25,545 bases of DNA from a virus, in IMG/VR virus record IMGVR_UViG_3300045999_007416, positions 1 through 25,545 of that record; one strand, given 5' to 3'. The notes below the pieces were generated by a model, which saw nothing but the letters and a program-made list of their open reading frames with translations, did not search any database and had not been told where the DNA came from. How positions within the stretch are numbered: the first letter of the stretch is position 1; each line of letters begins with the position of its first letter. The translations under genes were made by a program, and so were the position numbers. Of the stretch, positions 988-25,545 are shown one piece after another.

Positions 988-990
988 GTC

Positions 991-3699: not shown

Positions 3700-3706
3700 C
3701 AATAGT

Positions 3707-3722
3707 GTGATTTGACTAAACC
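3707..3722 (-). repeat. Copy 1 of GGTTTAGTCAAA word (inverted, 16-bp form)
   Basis: The minus strand here reads GGTTTAGTCAAATCAC, identical over 16 bp to the plus-strand sequence at 14632-14647. It fills most of the short gap between the nozzle gene and the ATG at 3724, ending one base before that start codon. Its function is unknown. Candidate roles are a regulatory or transcription site or an RNA element at gene starts. Confidence 0.7.
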
Positions 3723-3723
3723 C

Positions 3724-4149
3724 ATGAGCCAGCCCGTTCTTCAACTTCGCATGTTCGATCCGTCCAAGGACTATGACATGGTCGCCGGATGGTGGAAGGG
3801 CCACGGATGGAATCCGGTGCCGCCGTTCTTTTTGCCCAAGCTGGGTGTGGTCGCCTGCTGGGCCGAGGGAGAGAAGACCGAGGACGCCGCCGCGGCGTGG
3901 CTCTACATGGACAACTCCGCTCCGGTTTGCTGGCTGGAATACATGGTCAGCAATCCCGAAGCCAACGCGGGACGCGCTGTCAAAGCCCTCCGTCACTTGG
4001 ATGCCTTTTTGACCGGCGAGGCCAAGGCCACCGGCTACGTCGTGATGATGACCACATGCAGGCAGGATTCGCTGGTCAAGTTCCACGAAAAGAACGGCTT
4101 TAAGAAAACCGACGAGGACGTCACCCACCTCGTCAAAGTCATCGAATAA
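3724..4149 (+). CDS. GNAT-like N-acetyltransferase encoded in the tail module
   Basis: A 141-aa protein with a GNAT-type layout: a beta strand with the substrate-side block A-W-L-Y-M-D near residues 58-63, a long central helix (A-V-K-A-L-R-H-L-D), then a strand V-V-M-M-T-T followed by S-L-V-K-F-H-E-K-N-G-F-K-K near residues 116-128. That last block is the usual C-terminal GNAT signature, in which a helix packs against 'xxGF'. Acetyltransferase-like genes between nozzle and internal core genes occur in other T7-type phages, where their target is not known. An in-frame TTG start at 3712 would lie inside the repeated word, so ATG 3724 is preferred. No Shine-Dalgarno is visible. Confidence 0.72.
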   Translation: MSQPVLQLRMFDPSKDYDMVAGWWKGHGWNPVPPFFLPKLGVVACWAEGEKTEDAAAAWLYMDNSAPVCWLEYMVSNPEANAGRAVKALRHLDAFLTGEAKATGYVVMMTTCRQDSLVKFHEKNGFKKTDEDVTHLVKVIE

Positions 4150-4150
4150 T

Positions 4151-4816
4151 ATGGCTGGAGTTACCGCATCAGTTTTGGCCGGTGTGGCTATTGTTGGAAG
4201 CCTTGCTTCCGCGGGCATGTCGTTTTACGGCCAGCAGCAGCAAGCTGCCTCTGCCGAGCGCCTCGCCAACTACAACTACCAAGTGCAACTGCAACAAATG
4301 CAGATGCAGGCGCAGATGCAAAAAGTCGCCGCCGAGCAGCAATACCAAGCGGGTATGCAGAACGCCACCGCGATGCAGAACGAAGGACTGCGCGTGGAAC
4401 AGGAGGCCCGCGAACGCGCCAAGCGCATGCGGGCCGAAAACGAGCGCCTCTTGGGCCAGCAGCGGGCGCAGTTTGGTAAGGCGGGCGTGACAAGCGCCGG
4501 TTCGCCCTTGGCTATTATGGCCGAGTCTGCCGGACTCATGGAACTGGCCGTTGGCGACGAACTCTACAAGGCCGATCTGGAACGCACCGCGCTCTACCGC
4601 AAGGCCGAGGTCGAGAAGTGGCAGGCCGGATACTCTTTGGTCGATAAAGCCGCCGCGGACTACAACGCGGCCAGCGCGTCCTTCCGCGCCCAGCCGATCC
4701 TCTTGGAAGGCCAGAACACCGCGAGCGCCCTGCGCGTCAACAGCTATGGGTCGCTGATCTCCGGCGTCTCTCAAGCGGCGAGCATTGGCGGCAGCTACAA
4801 CTTTAAGGGACGCTGA
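4151..4816 (+). CDS. Internal virion protein (T7 gp14-like)
   Basis: A 221-aa protein. It has one hydrophobic segment at about residues 4-25, then a long Gln/Ala/Met-rich helical region at about 27-125 with coiled-coil character (many QQ and QMQ repeats and E-R-A-K-R-M-R blocks), and a Ser/Gly/Ala-rich tail. This arrangement is typical of gp14-type ejection proteins, which leave the head first and form a pore in the outer membrane. It lies 1 nt after the GNAT stop and 2 nt before the transglycosylase gene, matching the order gp14-gp15-gp16. Assignment rests on architecture and position more than on specific residues. Confidence 0.72.
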   Translation: MAGVTASVLAGVAIVGSLASAGMSFYGQQQQAASAERLANYNYQVQLQQMQMQAQMQKVAAEQQYQAGMQNATAMQNEGLRVEQEARERAKRMRAENERLLGQQRAQFGKAGVTSAGSPLAIMAESAGLMELAVGDELYKADLERTALYRKAEVEKWQAGYSLVDKAAADYNAASASFRAQPILLEGQNTASALRVNSYGSLISGVSQAASIGGSYNFKGR

Positions 4817-4818
4817 TC

Positions 4819-13000: not shown

Positions 13001-14606
13001 TGATCCGATTAGCGATTGGAGCTACGATCAGACTTTTGTCAACAAGGCCGAAGCCCTGCTCACCGACGAGGCCAAAGCCATCCGCGACTTTTTGCTCAAC
13101 GACTACGCCGAGCAATGGAGCGAACTCAATGAGGTCTTTGTCAAACTCAACGACATCAATCTGCCGCAGGAGCAATTCTACTCGCCGCTGTCGGTCAACC
13201 CCGTTCAGACGACGCAGAACCAAACCGTCGATCCGTTGACCGGATTCGCTGTCGCCGTCCCAAACCGCACGCCGCCATCACTGCGCTCCCGCGGTGCCGC
13301 CGTGGCCGAGCCGGTCTTCAGCAACGCCATCAACAAGTGGTTCGCGCACCGCCTGCAAATGGCTCACTGGAAAGCGTATGCCGAGTTCAACAACGAGGCG
13401 CTGTCGGTGCTGGGCCACCGCAACGTCCGCAACGCCATCGAAGCCAAGGTGGGGCAGGCCGGTCTGACCTCGCTCCAGCACTATCTGACTTACTTCCAGC
13501 AGGGCGGCAACCGCGCCGCGGACGCCAACTTGGAACTAACCAAGGCGCTGCGCGGAATCTTGGGCCGCGCCATCACGATGTCGCTGTTTGGTCGCATTGG
13601 CACCGTTCTTATCCAGTTTACCCAGCTTGGCGCTGCCGCGGCGAAAATGCCCTTGCACGCCTATCTGCGCCGGTTTTCCAAGCTGATGACCGGACAGATG
13701 GGCTGGGGCGAGGCGCTCAAGTCGCCCTACATCCAGCGCCGCATCGCGCAGATGCCTCCGCAAGTCCAAGTGGGAATGGCCGGATTGCAGGCCAACAAGC
13801 CCAGCCAGATCCGCGAAGCCGCCCGCAGGGTGGGCTGGCTCTTGAGCGGCAACGACGGTCTGTCCACCGCGGGAACCTACGCGATGGTCTACGACTACCA
13901 ACTGGAGCAGATGAAAAAAGCGGGCATGACCGGCGCACAGGCCGAAGCCGCCGCCCGCGAAGAGGCCGAACGAACAACCGACGAGATCGCCCAGCCAACC
14001 AGAGCCGGTGCCAGATCCTCTTTTGAGTTAAGCCAAACCAGCCCGCTCCAGACCGTCGCGTGGGCGTTTGCTTCCGAGCCGCGCAAAAATGTGGCGCTCC
14101 TTGCCTACTTGCAGCGGGCCAAGCGACCACTGTCCGAAAAAAGCCGCGCCATGCTCTACGTCTTTATCATCAACGGCGTCTTCGCCGCGCTAATGCGGAC
14201 AATGCTCCGCGACCTTCGCGACGACGAGGATGATGAAATCTTTGACTGGGACGACACATGGAACCCCAAGCGCCTTGCCCTTATGGTGATGACTGAACCG
14301 CTCTACGGTGTGCCAGTATTGGGCGAAATGGCCGAGGAAGCCATCTTCCGCGCCTTCCGCGAGTATCGCCCAGAGGGTTCGCTTTACAGCGTGGCCGACC
14401 CCGCCTTCAGCTTGTCTCGCGTGCCGGAGCATTTCAGCAACTTGCTGGAGGGTGAGGTTGACGGGCGGCGTTTGGTCAAGGACATCAACAACATCCTGCG
14501 CGGATTCGGCTACGCCTTCCCGACCGCAGCCGGTGCCGCGGCGCTCTCCAATCTTGGCAAGGAAGTGTACGAGATGGCCGACACCCTCTTTGGTGACGAC
14601 GAATAA
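7029..14606 (+). CDS. Giant ejection/polyvalent protein with zinc metalloprotease module
   Basis: At 2525 aa this is nearly twice the size of T7 gp16 (about 1318 aa), and it sits in the gp16 position. Visible parts are: hydrophobic segments near residues 392-413, 532-552, 2182-2200 and 2372-2392; long helical regions; a zincin-type module around residues 920-1160 with H1080-E-M-A-H1084 and a possible Glu ligand at E1125 or E1129 in S-E-F-L-A-E-Q-F-A; and three N-Y-S-I junctions at residues 922, 1186 and 1554. The block G-N-V-I-P-L-S-Q-R-F before the second junction resembles linkers common in large phage polyvalent proteins. Residues 1190-1550 are a domain I do not recognise. The likely role is DNA ejection, with extra enzymatic domains entering the host. 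Confidence 0.8.
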   Translation: MSISFAATPQSKEAQQARTYTDPSAGAPPSRRSGYNAPYVDLGHWNKVFTDQNYFDSIAKQKGMTEGAKVSLHGDDYVYRQAMIGYLADTRKVPLDDMRSIFDAEKDGFAKTVLGKQTASAREMFDWQKGQFERSNEKKAAADQILQGVIRRSLEDALSGGDTPFVESVGKDIDAAAEMFDDEEKSRLWEKAEELDMKIRASQAKFAPEARFIFDALQQSTGQKTGFGAPDMREMASRFAQLPDNQRKAIYELAGGFAQITQTNKGFWYQMAESLGRGASDIVERVPRNFREQTLRGQLRLLNSDQPVFRATGVAGAEFSAAGSTPVFGATQGQMLTPEEREEAKAKIQSDLGVLKVERELRDLAERVVDPIKTIGVLPEIIEEGLYGAARSIPYTAVAAVPIAGVPAVASALFSSNYDRIMLEYPDLDPDKAALIAAISAPIEAGLERMKVNTITGRLPVFGGLVKRLQHPNQRNITRIAIGGAGIVAEQNVQEIVQNATFPFVQTIAAALDADMPDYDWEERLAGMPRELAVQFVALLPLSLMGVGALSYREISRGENYLKSKADLEKAGYNEEQIDRITGAESAEAAQAALVEEHAKRDPKLVKAAAQRIVDESIALREKANPAALPRLEKQGADYVVLSPEGKELARTTDQTAAEQALVSARRETVQREMRDVHTGINEAVAFIQKVNEARQRGEDIAEVIREEAPRTLLTDYEANPTQENLDRLFETVRAFGQDINEPAELANFPVTGSNQGALREGIWRSIIRINEGADGTIVMREFAQDNLKRAISEGRTTMDFVRQQLNDILPQIDSDRIQRRLRTETDTDVIEAFSDVALAYFRGQIREEQIPAGLRGIMRRLAIFTRDIFRRAYNLARLRAEGKLDRDFEALLAEAVGVDQQALVDRSREKTAQEVAPEMANYSIGVTSQQDADYLAAVERGDMETAQRIVDEAAQQAGDIRLIQAIAGDIEEVLGEGTNAESIAVIKQTIDDVLRFLNAPQIVASINTDDKTSASGEVFSVYEESTTDDRAERVTPRSSIAFNNYLLRFPPHDVSKVLDSWATDIGTLEGGGLRGLVAHEMAHVVHNYLRTGRTDEAKEKLWSAIKELSQGPAVSQYASTSPSEFLAEQFASEFLNQTIGPATRLFLDELQAAPPVKSSAPVTRDSQGNVIPLSQRFDATTADINYSIVRSVDHYRNDTRFDKLVKDGRVFTGVDVNDFTDMHILLHSPDNAFAGTIQLTDGGEIKGKGGVYYPALYADKNYFWASTEAMVMRTANHLNEIGAKNGGRILMGLVSAPVEKLFSSTSMATGVVKFLNALTTDSKAGLLKSELNAMLVAASKVEVIVPTKTKETKKTFRTKLKASDSYATNFAKIDALLEPTGSIFQVRKAFVESLAEQIAKHLNAKPESAKYVAGILANAENKHAKNTIKRGTLSKASVLQGLGNMLTEPFLRDFQEHGSGKIYAIVEVQGEVKGIATTEHESYPATIVPVDKKSKVKLHVLKEAVDWQDVVGKETGQYATPQERLNLLPTSGMSSTSLKVLGVKAGSSANLLNYSISTQREIDRVQAAMDRLARSPLDSLGYTEKIRERFAQIMAENMAELQAMQQGGVAERTVLDEEGNPIGPQPDAAKTKATGAEMRRTKFLQALGELDGLLSVLPPQVAAKVGGYTVLTNIGTGDRALSNFFIKRLEMIDKELERYLKDRYTTALKELFKRAKPKRDDAGKVPKGKLGGGVHTLFERLEEAVEMSSVEIDGEIASLEQQIASGELEPEQEAASILLSDSLPLFGEWKTADASRMAQAVQMGYDIYRIAYKKQQAKALLRKNVRDQERIDGKEASGAPDDTAPVRQQNKNEAEQLKSKTKGIVTNLLSFDQLMSLVFGRDSAFTKKWVNWQRKSDNAKDDEFNAVYDQWSKFLATLTKHEKPYSMKATYAGQDLAFSIGEPKHKIKHTNVFGEKVEFEFSQADLLDITMMWMQPKGRAHMIGRLDDYGDPISDWSYDQTFVNKAEALLTDEAKAIRDFLLNDYAEQWSELNEVFVKLNDINLPQEQFYSPLSVNPVQTTQNQTVDPLTGFAVAVPNRTPPSLRSRGAAVAEPVFSNAINKWFAHRLQMAHWKAYAEFNNEALSVLGHRNVRNAIEAKVGQAGLTSLQHYLTYFQQGGNRAADANLELTKALRGILGRAITMSLFGRIGTVLIQFTQLGAAAAKMPLHAYLRRFSKLMTGQMGWGEALKSPYIQRRIAQMPPQVQVGMAGLQANKPSQIREAARRVGWLLSGNDGLSTAGTYAMVYDYQLEQMKKAGMTGAQAEAAAREEAERTTDEIAQPTRAGARSSFELSQTSPLQTVAWAFASEPRKNVALLAYLQRAKRPLSEKSRAMLYVFIINGVFAALMRTMLRDLRDDEDDEIFDWDDTWNPKRLALMVMTEPLYGVPVLGEMAEEAIFRAFREYRPEGSLYSVADPAFSLSRVPEHFSNLLEGEVDGRRLVKDINNILRGFGYAFPTAAGAAALSNLGKEVYEMADTLFGDDE
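8418..8429 (+). repeat. Copy 2 of GGTTTAGTCAAA word (inside a gene)
   Basis: An exact 12-bp copy of the word, here within the giant ejection gene and read as Gly-Leu-Val-Lys with a TTA leucine codon, which is uncommon among its neighbours. It is the only copy of the four that is not beside a start codon, so it could be coincidental. Confidence 0.5.
9785..10505 (+). other. Lower-GC cassette carrying the metalloprotease module
   Basis: Within the 2525-aa gene this stretch is visibly less GC-rich than the sequence on either side. It uses codons ending in A or T far more often (AAT, TAT, TTG, GAA, ACA). It begins at the first N-Y-S-I junction and ends near the linker before the second, so the composition boundaries match domain boundaries. 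This suggests a module acquired more recently than the rest of the gene. The boundaries are estimated by eye. Confidence 0.55.
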
Positions 14607-14631
14607 ACTATTGCGCCACCATGACCACGAA

Positions 14632-14647
14632 GGTTTAGTCAAATCAC
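14632..14647 (+). repeat. Copy 3 of GGTTTAGTCAAA word (16-bp form)
   Basis: Reads GGTTTAGTCAAATCAC and is the 16-bp inverted partner of 3707-3722. It lies in the 45-nt gap between the giant ejection gene and the first tail fibre gene, ending 4 nt before the ATG at 14652. No Shine-Dalgarno is seen at the usual distance from that ATG, so the word occupies the place where one would be. Confidence 0.7.
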
Positions 14648-14651
14648 TAAC

Positions 14652-16010
14652 ATGGCCGTTCAGTCCGACACATCTTCCATTAGCTACACCGGCAATAACT
14701 CGACCTCTACGAGTTACGCCGTCCCGTTCGTGTTTTTGGAGAACAGCCACCTTTCGGCGTTTTCCAAGGTGACGGAAACCGGCGTGGAAACCCTTGTCAC
14801 GCTGACCAACCACACCGGAGCCGGAGATGTCAACGGCGGCACTGTCCGCACCGCGGTTGCTGTTCCCGCAACATCCACGCTGACCATTTACCGCACCGTT
14901 CCAGCGACCCAAACGACCACCTACCAAGAGGGCGGCGACTTTCCCGCGGCGTCCCATGAGCGGGCGCTGGATAAGCTGACTTTTCTTGCCCAGCAAAACA
15001 AACGCGCCGCAGACCGCAGCTTCCGCGTGACCGAGGGCAGCGGCGTCAAAAACGAAGTTGTCGCCGTCCCTAACACGCTTTTGGGCCTTGATGCCGCCAA
15101 CCAACCCAAAGCGCTGACCGTCGATCAAGTCAAAAGCCTGCTGTCGATAACCGGCGTTACGCTTGACGTCGATGCAGGCATGAAGACCTTTGCCGACGCC
15201 GGAGAGCGTTCGCTCGCAGTACCAGACTTTACTGGTCAGCTTGGCACCCAGCGCGACACCAACGACATCTACATTTCAACAGGAACCGCCGCGGGCAACT
15301 GGTCGCTGGTGGACGAAAATATGTCGTTGGCGGATTTCTCCTCCGGCTTTTTTACCGCGGACGCAACGGGCCGCGGAAAGTTTGGCAGCGGGTTCGTTAA
15401 TGAGTCGCTCATTGAAAACAGCGCGGTCACCAACGCAAAAATTGCCAGCGGCGTCGATGCATCCAAGTTGACAACCGGAACGCTTCCGATTGCGCGAATT
15501 GCCGACGGGTCAGTCACTCCGGCAAAACTGTCTCAACCATTCACGCTTGTAACCGCGGTTGGAGCCGGAAGCGGCACCGCAATCGATTTCACCGGCATAC
15601 CGTCTTGGGTGCGGAGGATTACGGTAATGTTTCAAGCGGTCAGCACAAGCGGCACCTCGCGCAAGCAAGTGCAATTTGGAACAAGCGCAGGGTTTGTCGC
15701 GACTGGTTATTCCGGCGGACTTGCAACTACGGCATCAACAACAGTAGCCGGAACAAGCAGCACAACGGGCATTGCCCTTGGAGCAAGCAACGTGGCTGCT
15801 GACGTTATCAGCGGAATTATGACAATCAGATTGTGTAACACAAACGCATGGGTTGCTTCATTTGTTGGCGGATCATCGTCGGGCAACTTTATGAACTACT
15901 CCGGTGGCTCTATTACATTATCCGGCACACTTGATCGCATACGAGTAACGACAGAAAACGGAAGCGACACCTTTGACTCTGGAGTGATTAACATCAGTTA
16001 CGAGGGCTAA
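14652..16010 (+). CDS. Tail fibre with T7 gp17-like N-terminal domain
   Basis: A 452-aa protein. Residues 1 to about 130 follow the T7-type fibre attachment domain: an early S-Y-T-G-N block, then V-P-F-V-F-L, L-T-I-Y-R-T near 80, T-T-T-Y-Q-E-G-G-D-F-P-A, and E-R-A-L-D-K-L-T. This domain docks the fibre on the nozzle. A middle region (about 180-290) is Ala/Thr/Ser-rich and probably a trimeric shaft. Residues from about 295 to the end are Gly/Ser/Thr-rich and probably receptor binding; the DNA there is lower in GC (from about 15540), as is common for exchanged fibre tips. The start is ATG 14652, after the repeated word. Confidence 0.85.
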   Translation: MAVQSDTSSISYTGNNSTSTSYAVPFVFLENSHLSAFSKVTETGVETLVTLTNHTGAGDVNGGTVRTAVAVPATSTLTIYRTVPATQTTTYQEGGDFPAASHERALDKLTFLAQQNKRAADRSFRVTEGSGVKNEVVAVPNTLLGLDAANQPKALTVDQVKSLLSITGVTLDVDAGMKTFADAGERSLAVPDFTGQLGTQRDTNDIYISTGTAAGNWSLVDENMSLADFSSGFFTADATGRGKFGSGFVNESLIENSAVTNAKIASGVDASKLTTGTLPIARIADGSVTPAKLSQPFTLVTAVGAGSGTAIDFTGIPSWVRRITVMFQAVSTSGTSRKQVQFGTSAGFVATGYSGGLATTASTTVAGTSSTTGIALGASNVAADVISGIMTIRLCNTNAWVASFVGGSSSGNFMNYSGGSITLSGTLDRIRVTTENGSDTFDSGVINISYEG

Positions 16011-16012
16011 TT

Positions 16013-16369
16013 ATGAACCGCATCGAAGTCAACGTCATCACCGGAGAGCAACAAGTTATTCCGCTCACGCCGGAGGAAATCGCGGAAATCGAAAGCCGTC
16101 CGCAGCCGGAGGTTTCTGTGGTCAATCCGCTTGATCTCGCGGAAGCCCACATCGCGTCCCACTTCAGCACCGCCCGCCTGTTGCAAATGAAGGACTGGCG
16201 CGACACGTTTCCAGAGGAAGACGCGCCCATGCTGGAAGCGGTCTACGATTGGCTCAACGGCATCACGATTGCCGCAGCACAAGGTCAGACGACATTTGCC
16301 GCGCCGCCGCACACGTTTGAAGAACTCGTCGCGGAGGCCATGTTCATTCTTGGAGTGGAGCAGCCATGA
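16013..16369 (+). CDS. Small fibre-associated protein, possible assembly chaperone
   Basis: A 118-aa acidic protein. The opening (E-V-N-V-I-T-G-E, then L-T-P-E-E-I-A-E-I) and the W-R-D-T-F-P-E-E motif in the middle resemble small genes that commonly follow tail fibre genes in temperate phages and are thought to help fibre assembly. It begins 2 nt after the fibre stop and overlaps the next gene by ATGA. No catalytic residues or membrane segments are visible. The function is inferred from position and weak motif likeness. Confidence 0.6.
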   Translation: MNRIEVNVITGEQQVIPLTPEEIAEIESRPQPEVSVVNPLDLAEAHIASHFSTARLLQMKDWRDTFPEEDAPMLEAVYDWLNGITIAAAQGQTTFAAPPHTFEELVAEAMFILGVEQP

Positions 16370-16701
16370 TCTTGGAACTCAAAACCAGCGCCGCCATGCT
16401 CACAGCCGGAACATTCGGCGTGTTTGCTACCGCCGCGCCGGTCATGGAGTCCTTCGGCTGGCTTCGCACTGTGGCCGAACTGGGCAGCTTTGGGCTGGTC
16501 GCGTTCAGCGCCATCATGCTGCTGGTCAAGGTCGCTCCGGCTTTCATTAACCACTTGGACAAGGCGCGTGATTCTTTCCTTGTCGAACTTTCCAAAGAGC
16601 GCGAGCAGCGCCACGCGAACGCGGAGAAACTCAACCAGTCGCTGCACCAGATCGATCAGTCGATCCGCGATGTCCATCACACTTTGAAGGGGGTCAAGTA
16701 A
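16366..16701 (+). CDS. Membrane protein with C-terminal coiled coil (holin- or spanin-like)
   Basis: A 111-aa protein. A weakly hydrophobic N-terminal stretch (about 8-28) is followed by a clear transmembrane segment (about 38-56), then a charged helix to the end with E-L-S-K-E-R-E-Q-R and regularly spaced Leu and Ile, typical of a coiled coil. Phage proteins of this shape include holins and inner-membrane spanin partners. It lies in the fibre region, about 2.3 kb from the endolysin, so either role is possible, as is a structural role. It starts within the ATGA overlap with the previous gene. Confidence 0.6.
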   Translation: MILELKTSAAMLTAGTFGVFATAAPVMESFGWLRTVAELGSFGLVAFSAIMLLVKVAPAFINHLDKARDSFLVELSKEREQRHANAEKLNQSLHQIDQSIRDVHHTLKGVK

Positions 16702-16962
16702 ATGAGCGTCAAAATTCAAGACTGGAACAAGATTGCCTCCAACGTCGTCCTTGTCGCGCAAGGGCCAGATGGTAAGCCTGCGCTTCTTTCCGCGGATAAG
16801 CCCGCCGGAGCCACCGCGGAGAAGTTCACCTACACCAGCGGCAAGGTGACCAAAATCGAATACTTTTCGACCTACAATCCCGCGACCGAAACCGGCACGC
16901 TCATCGCCACGAAGAACATTCGCCACAACGGCGACGAAGTTAAGGACACTTACTGGACATAA
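16702..16962 (+). CDS. Small hypothetical structural protein
   Basis: An 86-aa protein, mostly beta-type with alternating polar and hydrophobic residues and no cysteine or membrane segment. It starts immediately after the previous stop with a good Shine-Dalgarno (GAAGGGGG, about 9 nt upstream of ATG), and the second fibre gene begins 3 nt after its stop. I do not recognise the family. Its place between a membrane gene and a fibre gene suggests a virion or fibre accessory protein. Confidence 0.65.
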   Translation: MSVKIQDWNKIASNVVLVAQGPDGKPALLSADKPAGATAEKFTYTSGKVTKIEYFSTYNPATETGTLIATKNIRHNGDEVKDTYWT

Positions 16963-16965
16963 TCA

Positions 16966-18489
16966 GTGGCGACCTTTGACTACAATCCGATCACCGGCCA
17001 ACTCGACCTCGTCGGATCTGGTGCGAGTTACATTAACGGCGTAGTGGCCGACCCGACGGCATTGCCCGTTACGCTTGGAACACCGCCACTCGACTCTGTC
17101 TATCTTGCCAAAGCCGGAAGCGGCGTGTGGCTAATCAACAGACGGCCCGCGGGACTGTATGTGCGTGTGGCCAACAATGGCGTGGCAGCGGATTGGACTT
17201 ATCTTGGCGCGTTTCCAGAGGTGAATGCAGACGCCAATTGGGAACTGTATAACTCAACTGACCCAACGAAAGAATTGAAGTTTGATTTGTCCAGCATCAC
17301 CACCGGCACGACCCGCACGCTGACCGCGCCGAATGCCTCTGGCCGCATCCAGATCGAAGGCCAGCCCATCGGCAACACCACGCCAGCGGCAGGCACATTC
17401 ACCACGCTCACCGCCAACAACGGCACGCTCACGGCGTCCGCGCCTGTGCTTGATCTGGCGCAGACTTGGGACGCCAGCGGGACGACTTTTACTGGGCTAA
17501 ACCTTGCGTTGACCAATACGGCAAGCGCCAGTGCAAGCTCTTACTTCAATATCAGTCTTGACGGCAATGAAGCGTTCTCCATTCGTCGTGGCGAATCAAC
17601 CGTCAGCGCCACGCTAATTAGGTGCGGCGGAACTGGAGGACTAACATGGACGGCTCGCACTCGCACAGGCGGGGGCGTTGGATTAAATTTTCAGCACACA
17701 TTAGGTATTGGTGCATCGTTAGAGTTTTTGGCTACCGCATCGGGAACAACAGGAGGAGATGTTGCTTTGGTGCGTGATGGTGATGGCGCCCTCGGTCAAC
17801 GCCGAGGCGCCAACGCCCAAACCTTCAACATCTACAGCACCTTCACCTCCGCGACGAACCACGAGCGCGGCTTCCTCAAGTGGAGCAGCAACGTGTTTCA
17901 GATCGGGACGGAGAAGGGATCGGGCGGCGGGACGGCGAGGGCGCTGGCGCTTCAAACAGACGGCACTACGCGAATGACCGTAGGCACCGATGGGTTCGTC
18001 GGAATTGGTGTCACCGCAGAAAGGCCGCTACACATCCAAGGTTCCGCTGCTTTTGGTCGCATGGATCGTCAAGGAGCTAACGGCCCTGCGTGGCTAATGA
18101 TTCGGATGGCGACAGGCACAACTGTAAGTAGTTCTTGGTTGTTTGGCCCAGCAACAGGAGTTGCATCTGTGGCAAACGATGATTTTGCCATCATTGACTA
18201 CGGAACTTCTACGAGTGGCACAAGCGGCACTCAACGCCTCACTATTGCCAAGTCAGACGGCCAACTCACCGTCAACGGCAACCTCAATCTTTCGACCAAG
18301 GATCTCGTCACCGACACCACGACCGGCACCAAAATCGGCACCGGCACCACGCAGAAGCTTGGATTCTTCAACGCGACACCCGCAGTGCAACCCGCCGCCG
18401 TAGCCGACGCCACCGACGCTGCCAGCACGCAAGCCCGCCTCAACGATCTGCTCGCCCGCCTCCGCACCATCGGAATCATCGCCACCTAA
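16966..18489 (+). CDS. Second tail fibre / adhesin protein
   Basis: A 507-aa protein starting with GTG. The opening, F-D-Y-N-P-I-T-G-Q-L-D-L-V, is a common start for phage baseplate or fibre proteins. The rest is Gly/Thr/Ser/Ala-rich. A block around residues 275-335 (N-A-Q-T-F-N-I-Y followed by E-R-G-F-L-K-W and Q-I-G-T-E-K-G-S-G) and a C-terminal block (K-I-G-T-G-T-T-Q-K-L-G-F-F) are recurrent modules of phage adhesins, recognised from memory. GC content alternates: lower at about 17560-17770 and 18030-18240, higher elsewhere, suggesting mosaic assembly. It probably makes a second receptor-binding structure. Confidence 0.75.
   Translation: MATFDYNPITGQLDLVGSGASYINGVVADPTALPVTLGTPPLDSVYLAKAGSGVWLINRRPAGLYVRVANNGVAADWTYLGAFPEVNADANWELYNSTDPTKELKFDLSSITTGTTRTLTAPNASGRIQIEGQPIGNTTPAAGTFTTLTANNGTLTASAPVLDLAQTWDASGTTFTGLNLALTNTASASASSYFNISLDGNEAFSIRRGESTVSATLIRCGGTGGLTWTARTRTGGGVGLNFQHTLGIGASLEFLATASGTTGGDVALVRDGDGALGQRRGANAQTFNIYSTFTSATNHERGFLKWSSNVFQIGTEKGSGGGTARALALQTDGTTRMTVGTDGFVGIGVTAERPLHIQGSAAFGRMDRQGANGPAWLMIRMATGTTVSSSWLFGPATGVASVANDDFAIIDYGTSTSGTSGTQRLTIAKSDGQLTVNGNLNLSTKDLVTDTTTGTKIGTGTTQKLGFFNATPAVQPAAVADATDAASTQARLNDLLARLRTIGIIAT
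17785..17811. repeat. GC-rich inverted repeat at an adhesin module boundary
   Basis: CCTCGG (17790-17795) and CCGAGG (17802-17807) pair perfectly around a 6-nt loop. Allowing a one-base bulge, the arms extend to GGCGCC(C)TCGG and CCGAGGCGCC. It lies in the second fibre gene where a lower-GC stretch changes to a GC-rich, recurrent module. Confidence 0.5.
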
Positions 18490-18493
18490 TCTT

Positions 18494-18802
18494 ATGCTAA
18501 CCAACCCTAATCCCATCGAAACGCCCGCCGTAGCCGCCAAAGTCTACGACCGCCTGCACGTTTACAGTCTGTCCGCGATCCAGCCGACCACCGATTCCGG
18601 CAGCATCACGGTCGAACTCTTGCCCGCCACCGCAGACGGCGAACTGGCCAACGGAAGCCTCGTCCAAAAGATGACCGCGCCGTTGACGCCCGAAATTATG
18701 GCAGCGGTTCCCGAACTCGCCGCCGCGTTCGCCGCAGTCCTCGCCGCGATTCCCGCGACCCAAGCCTACTTGGCCAGCCAGCAGGAGCAGCCCAATGAAT
18801 AA
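18494..18802 (+). CDS. Small hypothetical phage protein following the fibre gene
   Basis: A 102-aa protein with a short beta-type N-terminal part (Y-D-R-L-H-V-Y-S-L, later S-I-T-V-E-L-L-P) and an Ala-rich helical C-terminal part (about 68-95). It begins 4 nt after the fibre stop and overlaps the next gene by 8 nt. No known catalytic motif is visible. Such proteins follow fibre genes in several phages and may be fibre accessory proteins, but the role is not established here. Confidence 0.65.
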   Translation: MLTNPNPIETPAVAAKVYDRLHVYSLSAIQPTTDSGSITVELLPATADGELANGSLVQKMTAPLTPEIMAAVPELAAAFAAVLAAIPATQAYLASQQEQPNE

Positions 18803-19126: not shown

Positions 19127-19297
19127 ATGATCGACTACATCCTCGCCCGACTCAAAGAACCTTCCACCTATGCCGGAGCGGCCACCTTGCTGGCTCTCGT
19201 CGGCTGGAAACTTTCGCCGGAGTTGATGGGCGCGATTGCCTCTGCTGGCATCGCCGTCATCGCTTTGATCGAAATTGTTCGCCGCGAAAAGAAGTGA
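19127..19297 (+). CDS. Holin-like small membrane protein
   Basis: A 56-aa protein: an amphipathic N-terminus (I-D-Y-I-L-A-R-L-K-E-P-S-T-Y), two hydrophobic stretches (about 16-28 and 33-50) and a basic C-terminus (R-R-E-K-K). The arrangement L-K-E-P-S-T followed by two short membrane segments is common in small phage holins encoded just before an endolysin. It starts 1 nt after the lipoprotein stop and overlaps the endolysin by GTGA, so the three are translationally coupled. ATG 19127 is chosen; the longer in-frame extension would overlap the lipoprotein gene. Confidence 0.72.
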   Translation: MIDYILARLKEPSTYAGAATLLALVGWKLSPELMGAIASAGIAVIALIEIVRREKK

Positions 19298-19722
19298 GCA
19301 ACGAGCAAAAGTTCCAGCGGGTTCTCGACCGCTGGGGCGTGAAGCATTTCGCCGCTAAAGAGTTCTTCTACCGCGGAGCCAGCGACGAGAAACTCAACCT
19401 TAACACCGACCCTCCGGCGGAACTCTGGCCAAACATGGAGCGCACCGCCAAGGTGCTGGACGAGGCCCGCAAGCGACTGGGCGCGTCGATCCGTATCACC
19501 AGCGCCTATCGGTCACCGGCCTACAACAAGCGCATCGGCGGCGTGAGCAACTCGACGCATGTGCGCTTCAACGCGACCGATCTTGTGACGGCGCAACCGG
19601 CCTCGCTTTACCTCGTCCTGCTCGACCTCCGGCGCGAGGGCATGTTCAAGGGCGGGCTGGGATTGTATCGCAGCTTCGTCCATCTGGACACCCGCGGCCA
19701 CAACGCTACTTGGCGAGGTTAG
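19294..19722 (+). CDS. Endolysin, M15-type D,D- or L,D-peptidase
   Basis: A 142-aa protein starting with GTG in a GTGA overlap with the holin-like gene. The metal site of peptidase family M15 is visible: H89 in S-N-S-T-H, D96 in N-A-T-D, and H130 in F-V-H-L-D-T-R-G. Also typical are I-T-S-A-Y-R-S-P-A-Y-N at residues 68-78 and the N-terminal K-H-F-A-A-K-E-F. It would cleave peptide cross-links of peptidoglycan. There is no signal peptide, so release depends on a holin. Its 3' end overlaps the convergent integrase by 17 bp. Confidence 0.88.
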   Translation: MSNEQKFQRVLDRWGVKHFAAKEFFYRGASDEKLNLNTDPPAELWPNMERTAKVLDEARKRLGASIRITSAYRSPAYNKRIGGVSNSTHVRFNATDLVTAQPASLYLVLLDLRREGMFKGGLGLYRSFVHLDTRGHNATWRG

Positions 19723-20848
19723 CCAGCGGCTCCAGCGCCTTGGCCATCGTTTCGATGCTGGCGTGGGTGTAGTTGTTCGACACCTTGGTCGAGTCATGGT
19801 CGCAGATTAGCTGTCGGACGCGCTGATCCACACCGGCATCGACAAGCAGGCTGTTGGTGGTGTGACGCCATGAGTGGAATGTCTTGTCCGTAATGCCGCG
19901 GCCAGCGCCTTTGCGCTTGGTCTTTTCGCGGGCGATACCGGCGCGGTCGAGTAATGCGCTGAACTGGCGAGAAGCGACAGATGCCGACAACTTGGCCAAA
20001 GACGGCGTGATCGGCCCCTTGCCGGAGAGGCCGGTCAACTCGCCCATGAGCGGCACCGAGACGACGACGCCCTTGCGGCTTTTCTTCTCCGGCACAAAGT
20101 GCAGGACGCCGTCCTTGATTTCTTCGTAGCTCCGGCGCGTGGCGTCCCCGATCCGCATGCCGTAGAGCAACCCGAACAAACAAGCGGTGCGCCACTCCGG
20201 CTCCGCGGCGGCGAGGATGGCGGTGATCTCGTCTTTGGTAAAAGCCTTCCGGCTGGTGCCTCCGGTGCGGTGCAGTGACACAAGCTCCGCGACATTGGTG
20301 TCCAGTTGCCGGAGCAGGACGGCCCGCCGGAGGACGGAGCGTACGGCTTTGACAATGTAGACGGCGGTGGATTCGGCCAGACCGCTATCGGCCAGCGACT
20401 GGCGAAACTCCGCGATGTCGTCCGCGGTGATGCCGCGCAGATCGTGACCGGCGCGGACGCCCAGCCAGCGGGTGAAGTGGGCGACGTCGTTCCGGTATTT
20501 CTCCAGCGACCGCGGCTTGGACGCCTTGGCGGCAAGCCAGCCCTCCGCGGCCTTGTTCCATGTGACCGTCTTTTTGGGACTGGCAACATTGGCCAGTCTG
20601 ACCAGCGCATCCACGCGGGAGGCATACCAATGCTCGTCTGGCACCACAGAGCGTAGCTCACGCGCTGTCCGCTCCATTTCGTCGGCAAACGCTTTAGCTG
20701 CCCGTTTAGGCGTTGTTTTGTGCGGTAGCTTGGTGCTACGCATAGTGAGTCGCCAAAAGCCGCCACGGGCGTATTCCGGCGAAGCAACCCACACGCGCAT
20801 GCGACCGATCCAATATGGTGAAGACGGGATGATGATTACGGATGCCAT
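19706..20848 (-). CDS. int: Tyrosine recombinase / phage integrase
   Basis: A 380-aa protein. It has an N-terminal arm-binding region (S-P-Y-W-I-G-R-M), a SAM-like core-binding domain at about residues 95-190, and a catalytic domain at about 200-380. The catalytic set is visible: R232 in Y-G-M-R-I-G-D, a Lys around 255-259, H325 and R328 in H-S-W-R-H, H351 in C-D-H-D, and the nucleophile Y360 in N-N-Y-T-H. It would integrate and excise the phage at the adjacent tRNA-Gly-derived site. The start at 20848 gives a natural N-terminus, with GGTAGG as a possible Shine-Dalgarno about 9 nt upstream on the minus strand. Confidence 0.93.
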   Translation of the reverse strand: MASVIIIPSSPYWIGRMRVWVASPEYARGGFWRLTMRSTKLPHKTTPKRAAKAFADEMERTARELRSVVPDEHWYASRVDALVRLANVASPKKTVTWNKAAEGWLAAKASKPRSLEKYRNDVAHFTRWLGVRAGHDLRGITADDIAEFRQSLADSGLAESTAVYIVKAVRSVLRRAVLLRQLDTNVAELVSLHRTGGTSRKAFTKDEITAILAAAEPEWRTACLFGLLYGMRIGDATRRSYEEIKDGVLHFVPEKKSRKGVVVSVPLMGELTGLSGKGPITPSLAKLSASVASRQFSALLDRAGIAREKTKRKGAGRGITDKTFHSWRHTTNSLLVDAGVDQRVRQLICDHDSTKVSNNYTHASIETMAKALEPLANLAK

Positions 20849-20872: not shown

Positions 20873-20901
20873 ATACAATAAAACCCCTAAAATGCCTGCA
20901 A
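20873..20901 (-). promoter_or_regulatory. Candidate integrase promoter
   Basis: On the minus strand, TTGCAG (20901-20896) and TTGTAT (20878-20873) are separated by 17 nt, giving a start near 20866 and a short leader before the integrase ATG at 20848. The spacer is exactly the sequence 20879-20895, one copy of an imperfect direct repeat. Integrase binding there could therefore control its own expression. This is a consensus match only. Confidence 0.45.
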
Positions 20902-21042
20902 AAAATCGGCGTTTTACTCTGTAACAGAAGGACTTATACGAAACGAGGGTTCGATTCCCTTCACCCGCTTTTATTCTGTAAAACCCTCTAAAAGCACCCG
21001 ATTTAGCACACCCAGTTAGCACTCATTTTAGATATTGCAGGC
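20879..21042. other. Phage attachment site region (attP) with arm-type repeats
   Basis: This AT-rich noncoding stretch next to the integrase start holds a tRNA-Gly 3' end (20945-20969) flanked by repeats. TTTTA(C/T)TCTGTAA occurs at 20912-20924 and 20969-20981. TAAAACCC..CTAAAA-type 17-mers occur at 20879-20895 and 20979-20995. TTAGCAC occurs at 21003-21009 and 21016-21022. An inverted pair, GCCTGCAA (about 20895-20901) and TTGCAGGC (21035-21042), spans the region. These are plausible integrase arm and core sites. Phage genes lie on both sides, which fits attP better than attL or attR. Confidence 0.72.
20945..20969 (+). other. tRNA-Gly 3'-end fragment, likely att core
   Basis: The T-arm GAGGG-TTCGATT-CCCTT is followed by CACCCGC, the 3' acceptor strand, and discriminator T. 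This is the 3' end of a glycine tRNA whose 5' end would be GCGGGTG. No GCGGGTG, D-arm or anticodon arm is found upstream, so it is a fragment and not a tRNA gene. It would restore the host tRNA on integration. Confidence 0.78.
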
Positions 21043-21050
21043 TCTTTAGA

Positions 21051-21072
21051 ACTGGTTTTGACTCATACCAGT
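21051..21072. promoter_or_regulatory. Inverted repeat directly before the small basic gene
   Basis: ACTGGT (21051-21056) and ACCAGT (21067-21072) form a 6-bp inverted repeat around TTTGACTCAT, ending 1 nt before the ATG at 21074. As DNA it could be an operator; as RNA it could mask the start. Confidence 0.4.
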
Positions 21073-21073
21073 C

Positions 21074-21280
21074 ATGCCATACGCAGATCCCGACCGGCAG
21101 AAGGAATACATGCGGCAACGCTACCGCGACCGCTACGCTGACCCGAAGTTCGCCGCCAAGGAGCGCAAGCGTAAGGCAGCGTTCTACGAGGATAACCCCA
21201 GCTACAAAGAAAGGCTGATCCGCGGGGTCTACAAGCGGCGGGGCAAGGCGTTTCACAAGCGGACGCCCAAAGCCGCGTGA
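21074..21280 (+). CDS. Small basic protein, unknown function
   Basis: A 68-aa protein, very rich in Lys and Arg, beginning M-P-Y-A-D-P-D-R-Q-K-E-Y and continuing with R-Q-R-Y-R-D-R-Y. Small proteins with this opening are common in phage early regions and are usually uncharacterised; the charge suggests nucleic-acid binding. No zinc-binding cysteines or clear HTH are present. It is the first rightward gene after attP, preceded by an inverted repeat ending 1 nt before its ATG. Confidence 0.65.
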   Translation: MPYADPDRQKEYMRQRYRDRYADPKFAAKERKRKAAFYEDNPSYKERLIRGVYKRRGKAFHKRTPKAA

Positions 21281-21345: not shown

Positions 21346-21582
21346 ATGGAAAACCGCGCTATTGAACTGATATTACAAATCGCACGGAGGCAGGGTTTTA
21401 CCCCATCCGAATTGTTGGCCAATGCCATTGACAACTGGCAGACAGTGCATGACAGTTGCCAGCATGAAAAAGAAAACGACGAAGGACGGGAGGGCGGCGG
21501 ATCGTGTCCGCAAGACGCTCTCCTTGCCGCAGGATCTGACGGCCCGCATCCAAGAGGTGGCCGACGACAAGTATGCCGGTGA
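21346..21582 (+). CDS. Possible small protein overlapping the RHH repressor gene
   Basis: This frame gives 78 aa from ATG 21346 (a longer start at 21319 is possible). Its first 45 or so residues look natural (I-A-R-R-Q-G-F-T-P-S-E-L-L-A-N-A-I), resembling part of a small DNA-binding helical protein. Its last third overlaps the RHH gene in another frame and has the Gly/Pro/Arg-rich look of a shadow. It may be a real upstream gene, a degraded one, or spurious. A frameshift would be needed to join it to the RHH protein, and I see no evidence of that. Confidence 0.35.
   Translation: MENRAIELILQIARRQGFTPSELLANAIDNWQTVHDSCQHEKENDEGREGGGSCPQDALLAAGSDGPHPRGGRRQVCR
21434..21446. promoter_or_regulatory. 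Near-match operator before the RHH gene
   Basis: ACTGGCAGACAGT matches ACTGTCAGACAGT at 12 of 13 positions and lies 17 nt upstream of the RHH start at 21464. TTGACA (21428-21433) abuts it like a -35 box, but no good -10 follows. A further GACAGT half-site lies at 21451-21456. This fits autoregulation of the RHH gene. Confidence 0.55.
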
Positions 21583-21682
21583 CTTCACACGGGCGACGTT
21601 GGAAATTCTCGCCACGCGCTATCCCGAAGCGCGGCAGTTCCTGCGCGAGAACACGACCTACAAGCACAGCCGGAAAAAATAA
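21464..21682 (+). CDS. Ribbon-helix-helix DNA-binding protein, candidate phage repressor
   Basis: A 72-aa protein with a basic N-terminus (M-K-K-K-T-T-K-D). A ribbon strand V-R-K-T-L-S-L-P (about residues 15-22) is followed by two helices, Q-D-L-T-A-R-I-Q-E-V-A and D-F-T-R-A-T-L-E-I-L-A. This is the MetJ/Arc fold pattern, in which the paired strands read DNA. The gene has an operator-like palindrome just upstream, ends at a terminator, and faces the main early promoter with two matching operators. I infer that it binds ACTGTC-N-GACAGT and controls the early operon, as Arc and Mnt do in P22. ATG 21464 is chosen because the domain begins soon after. Confidence 0.72.
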   Translation: MKKKTTKDGRAADRVRKTLSLPQDLTARIQEVADDKYAGDFTRATLEILATRYPEARQFLRENTTYKHSRKK

Positions 21683-22863: not shown

Positions 22864-23024
22864 TGGACTACCTCCTCGTCGCCCTGCTCGCGGCCATGTG
22901 GCTTTGCACCGTCATCGGTGCTTACAGCGCCGGATGGATGTCCGGCTGGGACAAGTCTCAAGCGCAAACCAAGTGGAACCGCTGGCTGCTCCGCAAATAC
23001 GAAAACCGCTCCGTCCGATTTTAG
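22863..23024 (+). CDS. Small single-span membrane protein
   Basis: A 53-aa protein: M-D-Y-L-L-V-A-L-L-A-A-M-W-L-C-T-V-I-G-A-Y forms one transmembrane segment (about 3-26), with a G-W-M-S-G-W turn and a basic C-terminal tail (W-N-R-W-L-L-R-K). It starts in a TAATG overlap with GGAGGT upstream. Early membrane proteins in temperate phages often act in superinfection exclusion, but nothing specific shows this here. Confidence 0.65.
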   Translation: MDYLLVALLAAMWLCTVIGAYSAGWMSGWDKSQAQTKWNRWLLRKYENRSVRF

Positions 23025-23049
23025 GCATGCACCAACCCACAAAACAAAA

Positions 23050-23079
23050 CCCGCCGACGCAGCATGCCGCGCCGACGGG
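23050..23079. repeat. Imperfect 30-bp palindrome before the RecT gene
   Basis: The sequence from CCCGCCGACG to GCCGACGGG is a 30-bp palindrome with 12 of 15 pairs matched and three C/A mismatches on the plus strand. On a minus-strand transcript all three become G-U pairs. It lies in the 83-nt gap before the RecT ATG. The role is unknown: a protein-binding site or RNA structure. Confidence 0.45.
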
Positions 23080-23107
23080 TCAGAACACAATGAAGGGAAC
23101 TAATACA

Positions 23108-23833
23108 ATGACAGCAGAAAATGGTCAACTGGCTCTCCAGAAGACCCAACCCGTCGAGATCCAACTCGACCAACACGGAGTGCAACTTCGCAGCTTCGAT
23201 GAAATGGCGAGGTTCTGCCGCGCCATCACCAACTCCGGCCTCGCGCCGAAGGGATTCAACACACCGGAGGCCGTCATGGTCGCCGTCCAGCATGGCTTGG
23301 AACTGGGCCTCGCGCCTATGCAGGCGCTCCAGTCCATCGCCATCATCAACGGCAAGCCCTGCATCTACGGTGATGCGGCGCTGGCCCTCTGCACCGCCCA
23401 CCCGTCGTTTCTCGACATCGAAGAAACGGTTGGCCGCGACAAAACGGCTGAAGGTCACGTTGCCACATGCATCGTGAAGCGCCGCGACCGCAGTGCCGTC
23501 GTCCGCACGTTCAGCGAGGCTGACGCGAAGAAGGCGCAACTCTGGGGCAAGAGTGGGCCTTGGCAGCAATACCCCAGCCGCATGCTCCAGATGCGGGCAA
23601 GATCGTGGGCCTTGCGCGACGCCTTCCCCGACGCGCTGCGCGGTCTGGGCATCCGCGAAGAGGTGGCCGACTACCAAGTGAAGGTGGCCCGCGGGCGCGA
23701 AGTCGCGTCCAGCGTAGTGCTACCGGAGCCGACAACCGCCGCGGAGTTCTTCGACACCGCCGCGGAGCCAAGTCAACGCGCCGCGCTCAACGACAAGGCG
23801 ACCGGCGAACTGTTTGCGGAGGTGCTGAAATGA
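23108..23833 (+). CDS. recT: RecT-family single-strand annealing protein
   Basis: A 241-aa protein. The core pattern is that of RecT-like recombinases found in phages: A-V-M-V-A-V-Q-H-G-L-E-L-G-L-A-P-M-Q-A-L-Q-S-I near residues 55-77, I-I-N-G-K-P-C-I-Y-G-D, then W-x-x-Y-P-S-R-M-L-Q-M-R-A-R-S-W-A-L-R-D near 152-171. It would anneal single strands made by the neighbouring exonuclease. The start is ATG 23108 with AAGGGA upstream; ATG 23090 or 23027 are in frame but less supported. It overlaps the next gene by ATGA. Confidence 0.8.
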   Translation: MTAENGQLALQKTQPVEIQLDQHGVQLRSFDEMARFCRAITNSGLAPKGFNTPEAVMVAVQHGLELGLAPMQALQSIAIINGKPCIYGDAALALCTAHPSFLDIEETVGRDKTAEGHVATCIVKRRDRSAVVRTFSEADAKKAQLWGKSGPWQQYPSRMLQMRARSWALRDAFPDALRGLGIREEVADYQVKVARGREVASSVVLPEPTTAAEFFDTAAEPSQRAALNDKATGELFAEVLK

Positions 23834-24045
23834 AGGCTGAAACTTCCCTACAGCCCGCGCTGGTCAAGGCGCTTGTCCTTCATGGACAGGCGACTCTCGA
23901 CCTTGTTTGGGCGCTGCAATGGCTCGACACGCTGACCGACCGGCTGACCGGCGACCACATGGTGGCCGAGTTCATGGCCGAGTTGGAACATCGGCGCACG
24001 ACGAGCGACACGCTCCACGCCGCAGCAAAGGAGGCCGGAATATGA
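23830..24045 (+). CDS. Small hypothetical protein between RecT and exonuclease
   Basis: A 71-aa helical protein with L-V-K-A-L-V-L-H-G-Q-A-T-L-D-L-V-W-A-L-Q-W-L-D-T-L and H-M-V-A-E-F-M-A-E-L-E-H. It has ATGA overlaps at both ends and a GGAGGT Shine-Dalgarno, so it is coupled to both recombination genes. It is not recognised; a partner or modulator of the annealing-exonuclease pair is a reasonable guess from position only. Confidence 0.6.
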   Translation: MKAETSLQPALVKALVLHGQATLDLVWALQWLDTLTDRLTGDHMVAEFMAELEHRRTTSDTLHAAAKEAGI

Positions 24046-24854
24046 ACAGCGGCATCCTTTCGCTGCCGGAGGCGCAATACCGCGCTGCCGAGGGCATATC
24101 GAAGTCCGCTCTGGACTACATCGCGCCGCCGCGGACGCCCGCTCACTTCAAGGCATACATCGATGGTTTGCTCCGCATCGAAACCACACCGGCCATGCGA
24201 CTTGGCCAGATGATCCATCGCTCGATCCTTGAGCCGGAGACGGTTTCCGGCGCTTGGGTCATCAAACCCGCGGGCATGAACTTTGCCACTAAAGAGGGCA
24301 AGGAATGGAAGGCCGCGCAAACCCAGCCGATCATCACGCAGGAAGAGGCCGACCAGATCGTCGGCATGCGTGACAGCGTCTGGTCGCACCCCGCGGTCAA
24401 GCGCGTCTTGTCCAACGCGAAGACCGAGTGTTCGCTATTCGCAAGTGGCGAAGACGGCGTCCTTCGCAAAGCTCGCGTCGATGCGCTGCCGGAATCCGGC
24501 AACGTCATCGTGGACATCAAAAGCTGTCAGTCAGCGGACGCGGACATGATGGCCAAGTCAGTGGTCAGCTACCGCTACGATGTGCAGGCCGCGTATTACC
24601 TCGACCTCTGCCAACTGCTGGGGATCGACAAGACGGAGTTCTTGTTCGTCTGCGTGGAGAAGCAGCCGCCGTTTGCGGTTGCCGTCTACGCGCTCGACCA
24701 GCAGGCCATTGAGTGGGGCCGCAAGCAGTATCAGCGTGACCTCGCGCTGGTGAAGAACTGCATGGCCGAGGATCACTGGCCGTCGTTCACGACCGACATC
24801 ACCACACTGGGCCTTCCGGCGTGGGCGGCAAAGCAAGCGGAGGCGGCGCTATGA
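24042..24854 (+). CDS. RecE-like PD-(D/E)XK exonuclease
   Basis: A 270-aa protein. The nuclease core is visible: R-L-G-Q-M-I-H-R (H59) at the end of the first helix, R-V-D-A-L-P with D147, V-I-V-D-I-K-S with D158 and K160, and Y-D-V-Q-A-A-Y-Y-L-D with Q182 and the following Tyr pair. This order matches the C-terminal domain of RecE and related phage exonucleases (DUF3799 type). It would resect double-strand ends for RecT. AAGGAGG lies just before its start, and it is coupled by ATGA on both sides. Confidence 0.82.
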   Translation: MNSGILSLPEAQYRAAEGISKSALDYIAPPRTPAHFKAYIDGLLRIETTPAMRLGQMIHRSILEPETVSGAWVIKPAGMNFATKEGKEWKAAQTQPIITQEEADQIVGMRDSVWSHPAVKRVLSNAKTECSLFASGEDGVLRKARVDALPESGNVIVDIKSCQSADADMMAKSVVSYRYDVQAAYYLDLCQLLGIDKTEFLFVCVEKQPPFAVAVYALDQQAIEWGRKQYQRDLALVKNCMAEDHWPSFTTDITTLGLPAWAAKQAEAAL

Positions 24855-25072
24855 ACATTGACAAAAACATTCCGCTTCCGCGGCGCAATAGCGACGTCGA
24901 ATACGCCGACGTCTTGGAGCGCATGGATGTCGGAGACAGCATCCTTGCCCCAAGCCAACAAGAGGCTCTGCGCGTCTATCACTGGTTCCGTTGCCGCAAT
25001 CAAAAGGTCGCAACGAGGGCGCAGTGGAGCGGAGGGGTCTACCAAGGTCATCGCGTTTGGAGAGTGCAATGA
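24851..25072 (+). CDS. Small hypothetical protein in the recombination operon
   Basis: A 73-aa protein. The pattern R-M-D-V-G-D-S-I-L-A-P-S-Q-Q-E-A-L-R-V-Y-H-W-F-R near residues 25-47, then V-A-T-R-A-Q-W and Y-Q-G-H-R-V-W-R-V, resembles small phage proteins found beside replication genes. No function is known to me. It has GGAGG upstream, an ATGA overlap with the exonuclease gene, and a 4-nt overlap with the next. Confidence 0.62.
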   Translation: MNIDKNIPLPRRNSDVEYADVLERMDVGDSILAPSQQEALRVYHWFRCRNQKVATRAQWSGGVYQGHRVWRVQ

Positions 25073-25380
25073 GCGAAAAATCCTTTGTTCCCAGATGGAG
25101 CAAGGGCGTCACGCCCGCCGAGTGGCGTCAGCGACTTTTGTCGCTGGCGCTGCCGGTGCGGCACGCCGCGGCGCGGATCATTTGGTGGGAGACATTGTCT
25201 CTCCGCATGTATGGCGACCGCTGCGATGTCCTCGACGACATGCTCAAGCACGGCCCAGAGGTTCCCGACCAAGACCTTCAAGCCGCTCTCATCGAAATCG
25301 GTCTGCCGGAAGGCTTTGTTCGCCGCCGGATCACCACGCCCAAACCGCGCCCACCGCGGCGCAAGAAACCCACTACATGA
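25069..25380 (+). CDS. Hypothetical protein with basic proline-rich tail
   Basis: A 103-aa protein. The N-terminal W-R-Q-R-L-L-S-L-A-L-P and helical middle part are followed by a C-terminal tail with R-R-R-I-T-T-P-K-P-R-P-P-R-R-K, likely nucleic-acid binding. GGAGAG precedes the ATG. It overlaps the RusA start by 4 nt. Family not recognised; it is in the usual place of a small replication or DNA-maintenance accessory protein. Confidence 0.6.
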   Translation: MSEKSFVPRWSKGVTPAEWRQRLLSLALPVRHAAARIIWWETLSLRMYGDRCDVLDDMLKHGPEVPDQDLQAALIEIGLPEGFVRRRITTPKPRPPRRKKPTT

Positions 25381-25545
25381 TTACCGCAATTATTAACGGC
25401 GACCCACCAACCGTCACCGCCCAGCAGAAGGGCGTGATGGTTCGCGCCGGTCGCCCCATGTTCTTCACAAAGAAAAAGGTCAAGGACGCGCAGGACGCGC
25501 TGGTCTTACAGCTTCGGCAATTTAAGCCGCGGCAACCAGTGGAGT
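25377..25545 (+). CDS. RusA-like Holliday junction resolvase (3'-truncated)
   Basis: Fifty-six residues before the window ends. The start, M-I-T-A-I-I-N-G-D-P-P-T-V-T-A-Q, and the following F-F-T-K-K-K-V-K-D-A-Q match the N-terminal strand and early region of RusA-type phage nucleases. The catalytic aspartates lie beyond the cut, so activity cannot be judged. It follows RecT and the exonuclease, which suits a recombination module. It starts inside the previous gene. Confidence 0.65.
   Translation, partial: MITAIINGDPPTVTAQQKGVMVRAGRPMFFTKKKVKDAQDALVLQLRQFKPRQPVE

Follow-up and report, generated by a model that had tools for sequence, protein, structure and literature searches.

An attP site copying the 3′ end of tRNA-Gly in what is very probably the free genome of a temperate phage

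A metagenomic virus record of IMG/VR contains what is very probably (probability about 0.9) a temperate-phage attP that lies in a non-integrated genome and has a core reproducing the 3′ end of tRNA-Gly from the host. The window analysed here is the complete IMG/VR record, 25,545 bases long. The core (20945–20969, + strand) reads GAGGGTTCGATTCCCTTCACCCGCT and consists of the two T-stem strands GAGGG (20945–20949) and CCCTT (20957–20961), the loop TTCGATT between them (20950–20956), the 7-nt 3′ strand of the acceptor stem, CACCCGC (20962–20968), and the discriminator T (20969). Folding of the 17-nt T-arm gives a 5-bp stem and a 7-nt loop, as expected. Comparison with host tRNA-Gly genes revealed identity over 27 bp (20943–20969, ACGAGGG...CGCT), which spans the T-arm to the discriminator and does not reach the anticodon. 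Because ARAGORN called no tRNA in the window and Rfam neither a tRNA nor any other RNA, we take the rest of the tRNA to be absent from it; the D-arm, the anticodon arm and the 5′ strand of the acceptor stem are all missing. Simple arithmetic gives an expectation of approximately 5e-11 for an exact 25-mer match in 25.5 kb on both strands, and the probability of a chance origin is negligible. Among 120 genomic copies of the 21-nt core that we examined, 8 lay outside any tRNA and 2 at a contig edge, and all 110 that ARAGORN assigned belonged to tRNA-Gly (60 CCC, 49 TCC and 1 GCC anticodons). The proposal in a preliminary description of this DNA, that attP derives from the 3′ end of tRNA-Gly and retains the T-arm, CACCCGC and the discriminator T with no other tRNA part, is thus confirmed. 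Since the 25-mer occurs in tRNA-Gly across many phyla, it does not by itself identify the host.

The core is set in a frame of short repeats. Direct repeats of TCTGTA, proposed protein-binding sites, lie on either side of it (20918–20923 and 20975–20980, + strand), and the 57-bp spacing between them in the window recurs in 14/14 aligned relatives. Further to the right, two proposed P′ arm-type sites follow on the same strand, TTTAGCACA at 21002–21010 and, 13 bp past it, GTTAGCACT at 21015–21023; both were recognized by conservation, correspond to GTTAGCACA in the relatives and fit the consensus (T/G)TTAGCAC(A/T). The TCTGTA-pair and TTAGCAC tandem arrangements each occur once in the window. 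In an alignment of 15 sites, the core was bracketed by TCTGT(A/T) repeats with a spacing of exactly 57 bp, the GTTAGCACA-like pair stood at +84 and +97, and these distances of 57, 84 and 97 bp were invariant in all aligned relatives, whether the core derived from tRNA-Gly or from tRNA-Cys. The flanking sites and the 57-bp frame are kept across integrases down to 58% identity. Judged from their conserved distances around the core, the flanking repeats are candidate arm-type sites; the span first marked in the preliminary description (20879–21042) includes these conserved repeats besides the core.

The genes around the site are those of a temperate phage with podovirus-type tail genes; GC content here is 60%. 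To the left of the core lie the virion genes (382–18802, + strand; gene calls and family matches), among them tail proteins, an internal virion protein, a transglycosylase-domain protein, a tail fibre and others, and including one ORF of 2525 aa (7029–14606). They are followed by an M15-family peptidase that is probably the endolysin (19294–19722, +; PF08291, E 1.2e-16; phrog_894) and by a tyrosine integrase of 380 aa (19706–20848, −; PF00589, E 3.5e-11; PF02899, E 9.5e-7; phrog_1, E 1.5e-36). The integrase gene is divergent and transcribed away from attP, with 96 bp between its start codon and the core. The early module to the right, all on the + strand, begins with small ORFs, one of which (21422–21682, 86 aa, no family match) is, by eye only, a possible regulator, and continues with genes for a RecT-like single-stranded DNA annealing protein (22898–23833; phrog_561, E 1.1e-35), a RecE/exonuclease VIII-like protein (23907–24854; phrog_412, E 9.6e-75) and a RusA-like Holliday junction resolvase truncated by the contig end (24858–25545; phrog_140, E 7e-5). 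The arrangement noted at the outset, with the integrase on one side of the core and the phage early module on the other, is therefore borne out by the genes at 22898–25545. Terminase, portal and capsid or major head genes were not found in the window; in the relative G003 they occupy a block of approximately 13.4 kb that separates RusA from the position matching window base 1. Measured against G003, approximately 13 kb is missing, and the window represents roughly two thirds (25.5 kb) of a genome of approximately 39 kb.

To place the site among its relatives, IMG/VR was searched with the integrase, which yielded 34 loci at 58–91% identity, and with a pattern of the T-arm plus the right scaffold, which yielded 34 contigs. 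One of these contigs, L345, was rejected as a family member because its tRNA-like sequence is unrelated. The remaining 33 share the family scaffold, into which the end of either tRNA-Gly or tRNA-Cys is set in register. A tRNA-Gly core is present in the window and in L242–L245, L259 and L353, and most others have a tRNA-Cys core. Among phage records, the sole relative of the integrase was that of an Akkermansia phage (22% identity). Not every family member has a tRNA core, since L246 and L258 have the scaffold and lack the core; a separate pattern for further non-tRNA cores, which was too strict, returned none from IMG/VR. In L258 (IMGVR_UViG_3300042480_000846), whose integrase lies at 6001, the upstream site has GTAGTGTATACGGGCTA in place of the 17 nt past GAGGGTT, with the spacing unchanged; a search of IMG/VR returned this sequence from L258 alone, and it may represent a new target, a dead site or an assembly error. 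In L246, also upstream of an integrase at 6001 (70% identical to that of the window), the 57-bp frame is kept around a core that is not tRNA-like.

The same relatives bear on the state of the genome. Phage sequence flanks the core on both sides in 32/33 of them, the exception being L346, in which the available stretch stops just left of the core, and on the early-gene side the conserved phage scaffold is present in 33/33; neither an attL with a whole tRNA nor an attR with a host flank was found among the 33. Complete genomes point the same way: G019 has an exact terminal repeat of 127 bp, terminal overlaps measure 256 bp (99.2% identity) in G003 and 195 bp (96.4%) in G013, and attP lies inside each of these three genomes. 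Compared with one another, the relatives are circular permutations, with attP within the phage genome, and the flanks of the window are collinear with G003 across the core. Because the uncut core of the window has phage genes on either side, the window would be a free form, whether circular, permuted or concatemeric, and the terminal repeats and overlaps, permutation and internal attP of the relatives, together with the collinearity with G003, make the non-integrated reading well supported. The claim that the genome is not integrated accordingly holds up. As to the further suggestion of a circular or circularly permuted assembly, the window itself has no direct terminal repeat of at least 10 bp, and its circularity is deduced from the relatives. 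The evidence thus supports the window being an incomplete fragment of a free phage genome.

In tRNA-targeting tyrosine integrases, the phage core takes the place of the displaced 3′ end of the tRNA. Here the integrase, bound to the repeats on either side of the core, would bring attP together with the T-arm of tRNA-Gly in the host, and strand exchange would occur inside the T-loop, as has been deduced for Ms6 and other class II phages that target tRNA genes. By analogy with that phage (PMC1762012), we propose the T-loop TTCGATT (20950–20956, +) as the 7-bp strand-exchange (overlap) region, and the inverted repeat GAGGG/CCCTT that brackets it would be a natural candidate for the core-type binding sites flanking the overlap. 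In the integrated state, one junction would carry a tRNA-Gly made whole again by the copied 3′ end, with the early genes next to it, the expected attL being an intact tRNA-Gly followed by TTTTAYTCTGTAAAAC, and the other junction would hold the displaced host 3′ end beside the integrase.

The host is likely to belong to the Verrucomicrobiota, an assignment made at the phylum level and not lower. First, integrase matches at E ≤ 1e-30 were obtained in 12/388 Verrucomicrobiota genomes versus 0/399 control genomes (0/199 Planctomycetota and 0/200 from the phylum to which the gammaproteobacterial MAG G042 belongs). Second, two of these matches, the integrases of L280 and L284 (approximately 28–33% identity), have an isolated tRNA-Gly 3′ end approximately 100–150 bp away in the orientation of the window; past the core of L280/L084 lie Kelch/Ig genes, NHL-repeat genes and a transposase fragment, which fits a host flank. 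These displaced ends beside distant Verrucomicrobiota integrases support a contrasting, integrated layout. Third, requiring the Cys core besides the Gly core narrowed 25 genomes to two: one has the title Pedosphaera (Verrucomicrobiota), and the other is a lake MAG whose Akkermansia label is doubtful. The lake MAGs that contain L046 and L084 (4.6 and 6.4 Mb) are labelled Akkermansia muciniphila, a naming that looks loose. Displaced tRNA-Gly 3′ ends were also present in the Verrucomicrobiota MAGs G029 (four) and G037 (three), the source of loci L358–L365, with one intact tRNA-Gly of the same 3′ end in each genome, and because each holds several, this tRNA-Gly gene looks like a repeated target, or integration hot spot, in Verrucomicrobiota. 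A lysogen of the window phage or of a close relative was not found in the 388 Verrucomicrobiota genomes, in which the best integrase reached approximately 34–38% identity, and no integrase match at E ≤ 1e-40 was obtained in the order(s) to which G037 (320 genomes) and G033 (293 genomes) belong, a weak negative as it had no positive control. Use of tRNA-Gly as attB is therefore predicted rather than observed. Of the earlier expectation of a bacterial tRNA-Gly target, the identity of the core upholds the type of target, and the suggested search for host tRNA-Gly genes adjoining phage sequence returned two distant integrases beside a displaced tRNA-Gly end in place of a close lysogen.

Stacked integration raises the alternative that survives best, in which two prophages stand in tandem at the same tRNA-Gly and the window comprises the integrase of one, the core as the inner junction and the early genes of the next. 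Such a junction would be locally indistinguishable from attP, stacking is plausible in view of the multiple displaced ends in G029 and G037, and the window does not close on itself; yet host DNA adjoins the core in 0/33 relatives, complete genomes of unit length with terminal overlaps share the gene order, and the genes flanking the core are collinear across it with one relative, G003. We therefore consider a tandem prophage quite improbable and retain the free phage genome as the preferred reading.

Within the family, the tRNA type of the core appears to track the core-binding domain of the integrase. Comparison of the domains of 25 distinct integrases whose core is of the Gly or Cys type, with L247 set aside for the column split, revealed 19 alignment columns that separate Gly from Cys integrases cleanly, all of them in residues 25–192, the N-terminal and core-binding part. 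The catalytic part has no splitting column despite 106 variable ones (Fisher P = 1e-5, an optimistic value as the sequences are related). L247 (integrase at 1427–2563) is a natural chimera, with a Cys core: its core-binding domain is of the Cys type (73–86% identity to Cys-type versus 44–50% to Gly-type integrases) and its catalytic domain of the Gly type (75–90% to Gly-type versus 64–78% to Cys-type). The column split and this chimera together suggest that the tRNA target follows the core-binding domain. Tentatively, and with rather less than even confidence, we propose a rigid attP frame with an exchangeable core cassette (tRNA-Gly, tRNA-Cys and two non-tRNA sequences), in which the target moves with the core-binding and not with the catalytic domain; L258 may have been caught mid-retargeting. 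The early genes to the right of attP are 94–100% identical between the window and L254, whereas the integrase and core are approximately 40–78% identical (50-bp blocks), and this disparity suggests that the integration module is exchanged as a unit, with a junction near 21000–21050. Over window positions 21000–21280, L254 and L257 both have near-identical early genes, yet their integrase differs strongly and their core is of the Cys type.

Tracking of this kind also weighs on whether the site still works. Were the tRNA fragment left over from earlier integration, or a scrap present by chance, cases such as L258, in which the integrase is 97% identical to that of L242 (a Gly core) and the right-hand portion of the tRNA core is gone, and L246, likewise without a tRNA core, would be readily accommodated. 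The core of the window, however, is exact and sits in the invariant 57-bp frame, with flanking sites kept to 58% integrase identity, and because both this order and the match between core type and core-binding domain would decay without function, a relic is more improbable still than tandem prophages. An ordinary prophage ending at the core as attR, with host genes to the right, would place just such a displaced tRNA 3′ end on its integrase side, as beside L280/L084, but here the right flank carries the RecT/RecE/RusA phage genes and is collinear with complete relatives, and this reading has next to no probability; like the other two, it was rejected as less likely. The absence of host genes directly beside the core also answers one of the findings that the preliminary description had said would overturn a free genome. 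A working attP in a free genome remains the reading that we adopt.

The phage target site and the free state of the genome could here be confirmed from sequence alone, for a phage whose indicated host phylum has few known phages. In kind the site is ordinary, a class II tRNA T-loop attP in a free temperate-phage genome, and the class is well known and often described, also for a Verrucomicrobia phage (PMC3861242). Its additional value lies in the comparative series of relatives, with the relation of core type to core-binding domain a modest extra: they form a natural series of tRNA target versus integrase domain in one conserved frame, which bears on how class II integrases select their tRNA, and L247, if the cassette reading is true, would be a natural test of which domain sets the target.

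Islander-type tRNA-targeted islands, in which sites in the T-stem region are common (1836/3919; PMC4383910), likewise have an attP with a gene-restoring tRNA 3′ fragment, the displaced fragment marking the opposite end, but they are integrated in chromosomes, whereas the form described here is free. Mizuno et al. (2013) linked marine metagenomic phages, one of them a Verrucomicrobia phage, to hosts through attP–tRNA matches (PMC3861242); as here, uncultured phage contigs carried an integrase and a tRNA-identical attP, and the host was inferred at a broad level only. Their matches, at 36–46 bp, are longer than ours, and their Verrucomicrobia phage has a GC content of 43.8% versus 60% here. The closest parallel is the class II attP of mycobacteriophage Ms6 at tRNA-Ala, for which the T-loop has been indicated as the site of exchange (PMC1762012): both systems have a tyrosine integrase, an attP core of approximately 26 bp that matches the tRNA 3′ end over the T-loop without reaching the variable region or anticodon, and a 7-base T-loop as the likely exchange site. 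Ms6 differs in using tRNA-Ala rather than tRNA-Gly and in its unrelated host, and it was retargeted among tRNA-Ala genes by mutation, whereas in the present family tRNA-Cys cores occur naturally within one and the same frame.
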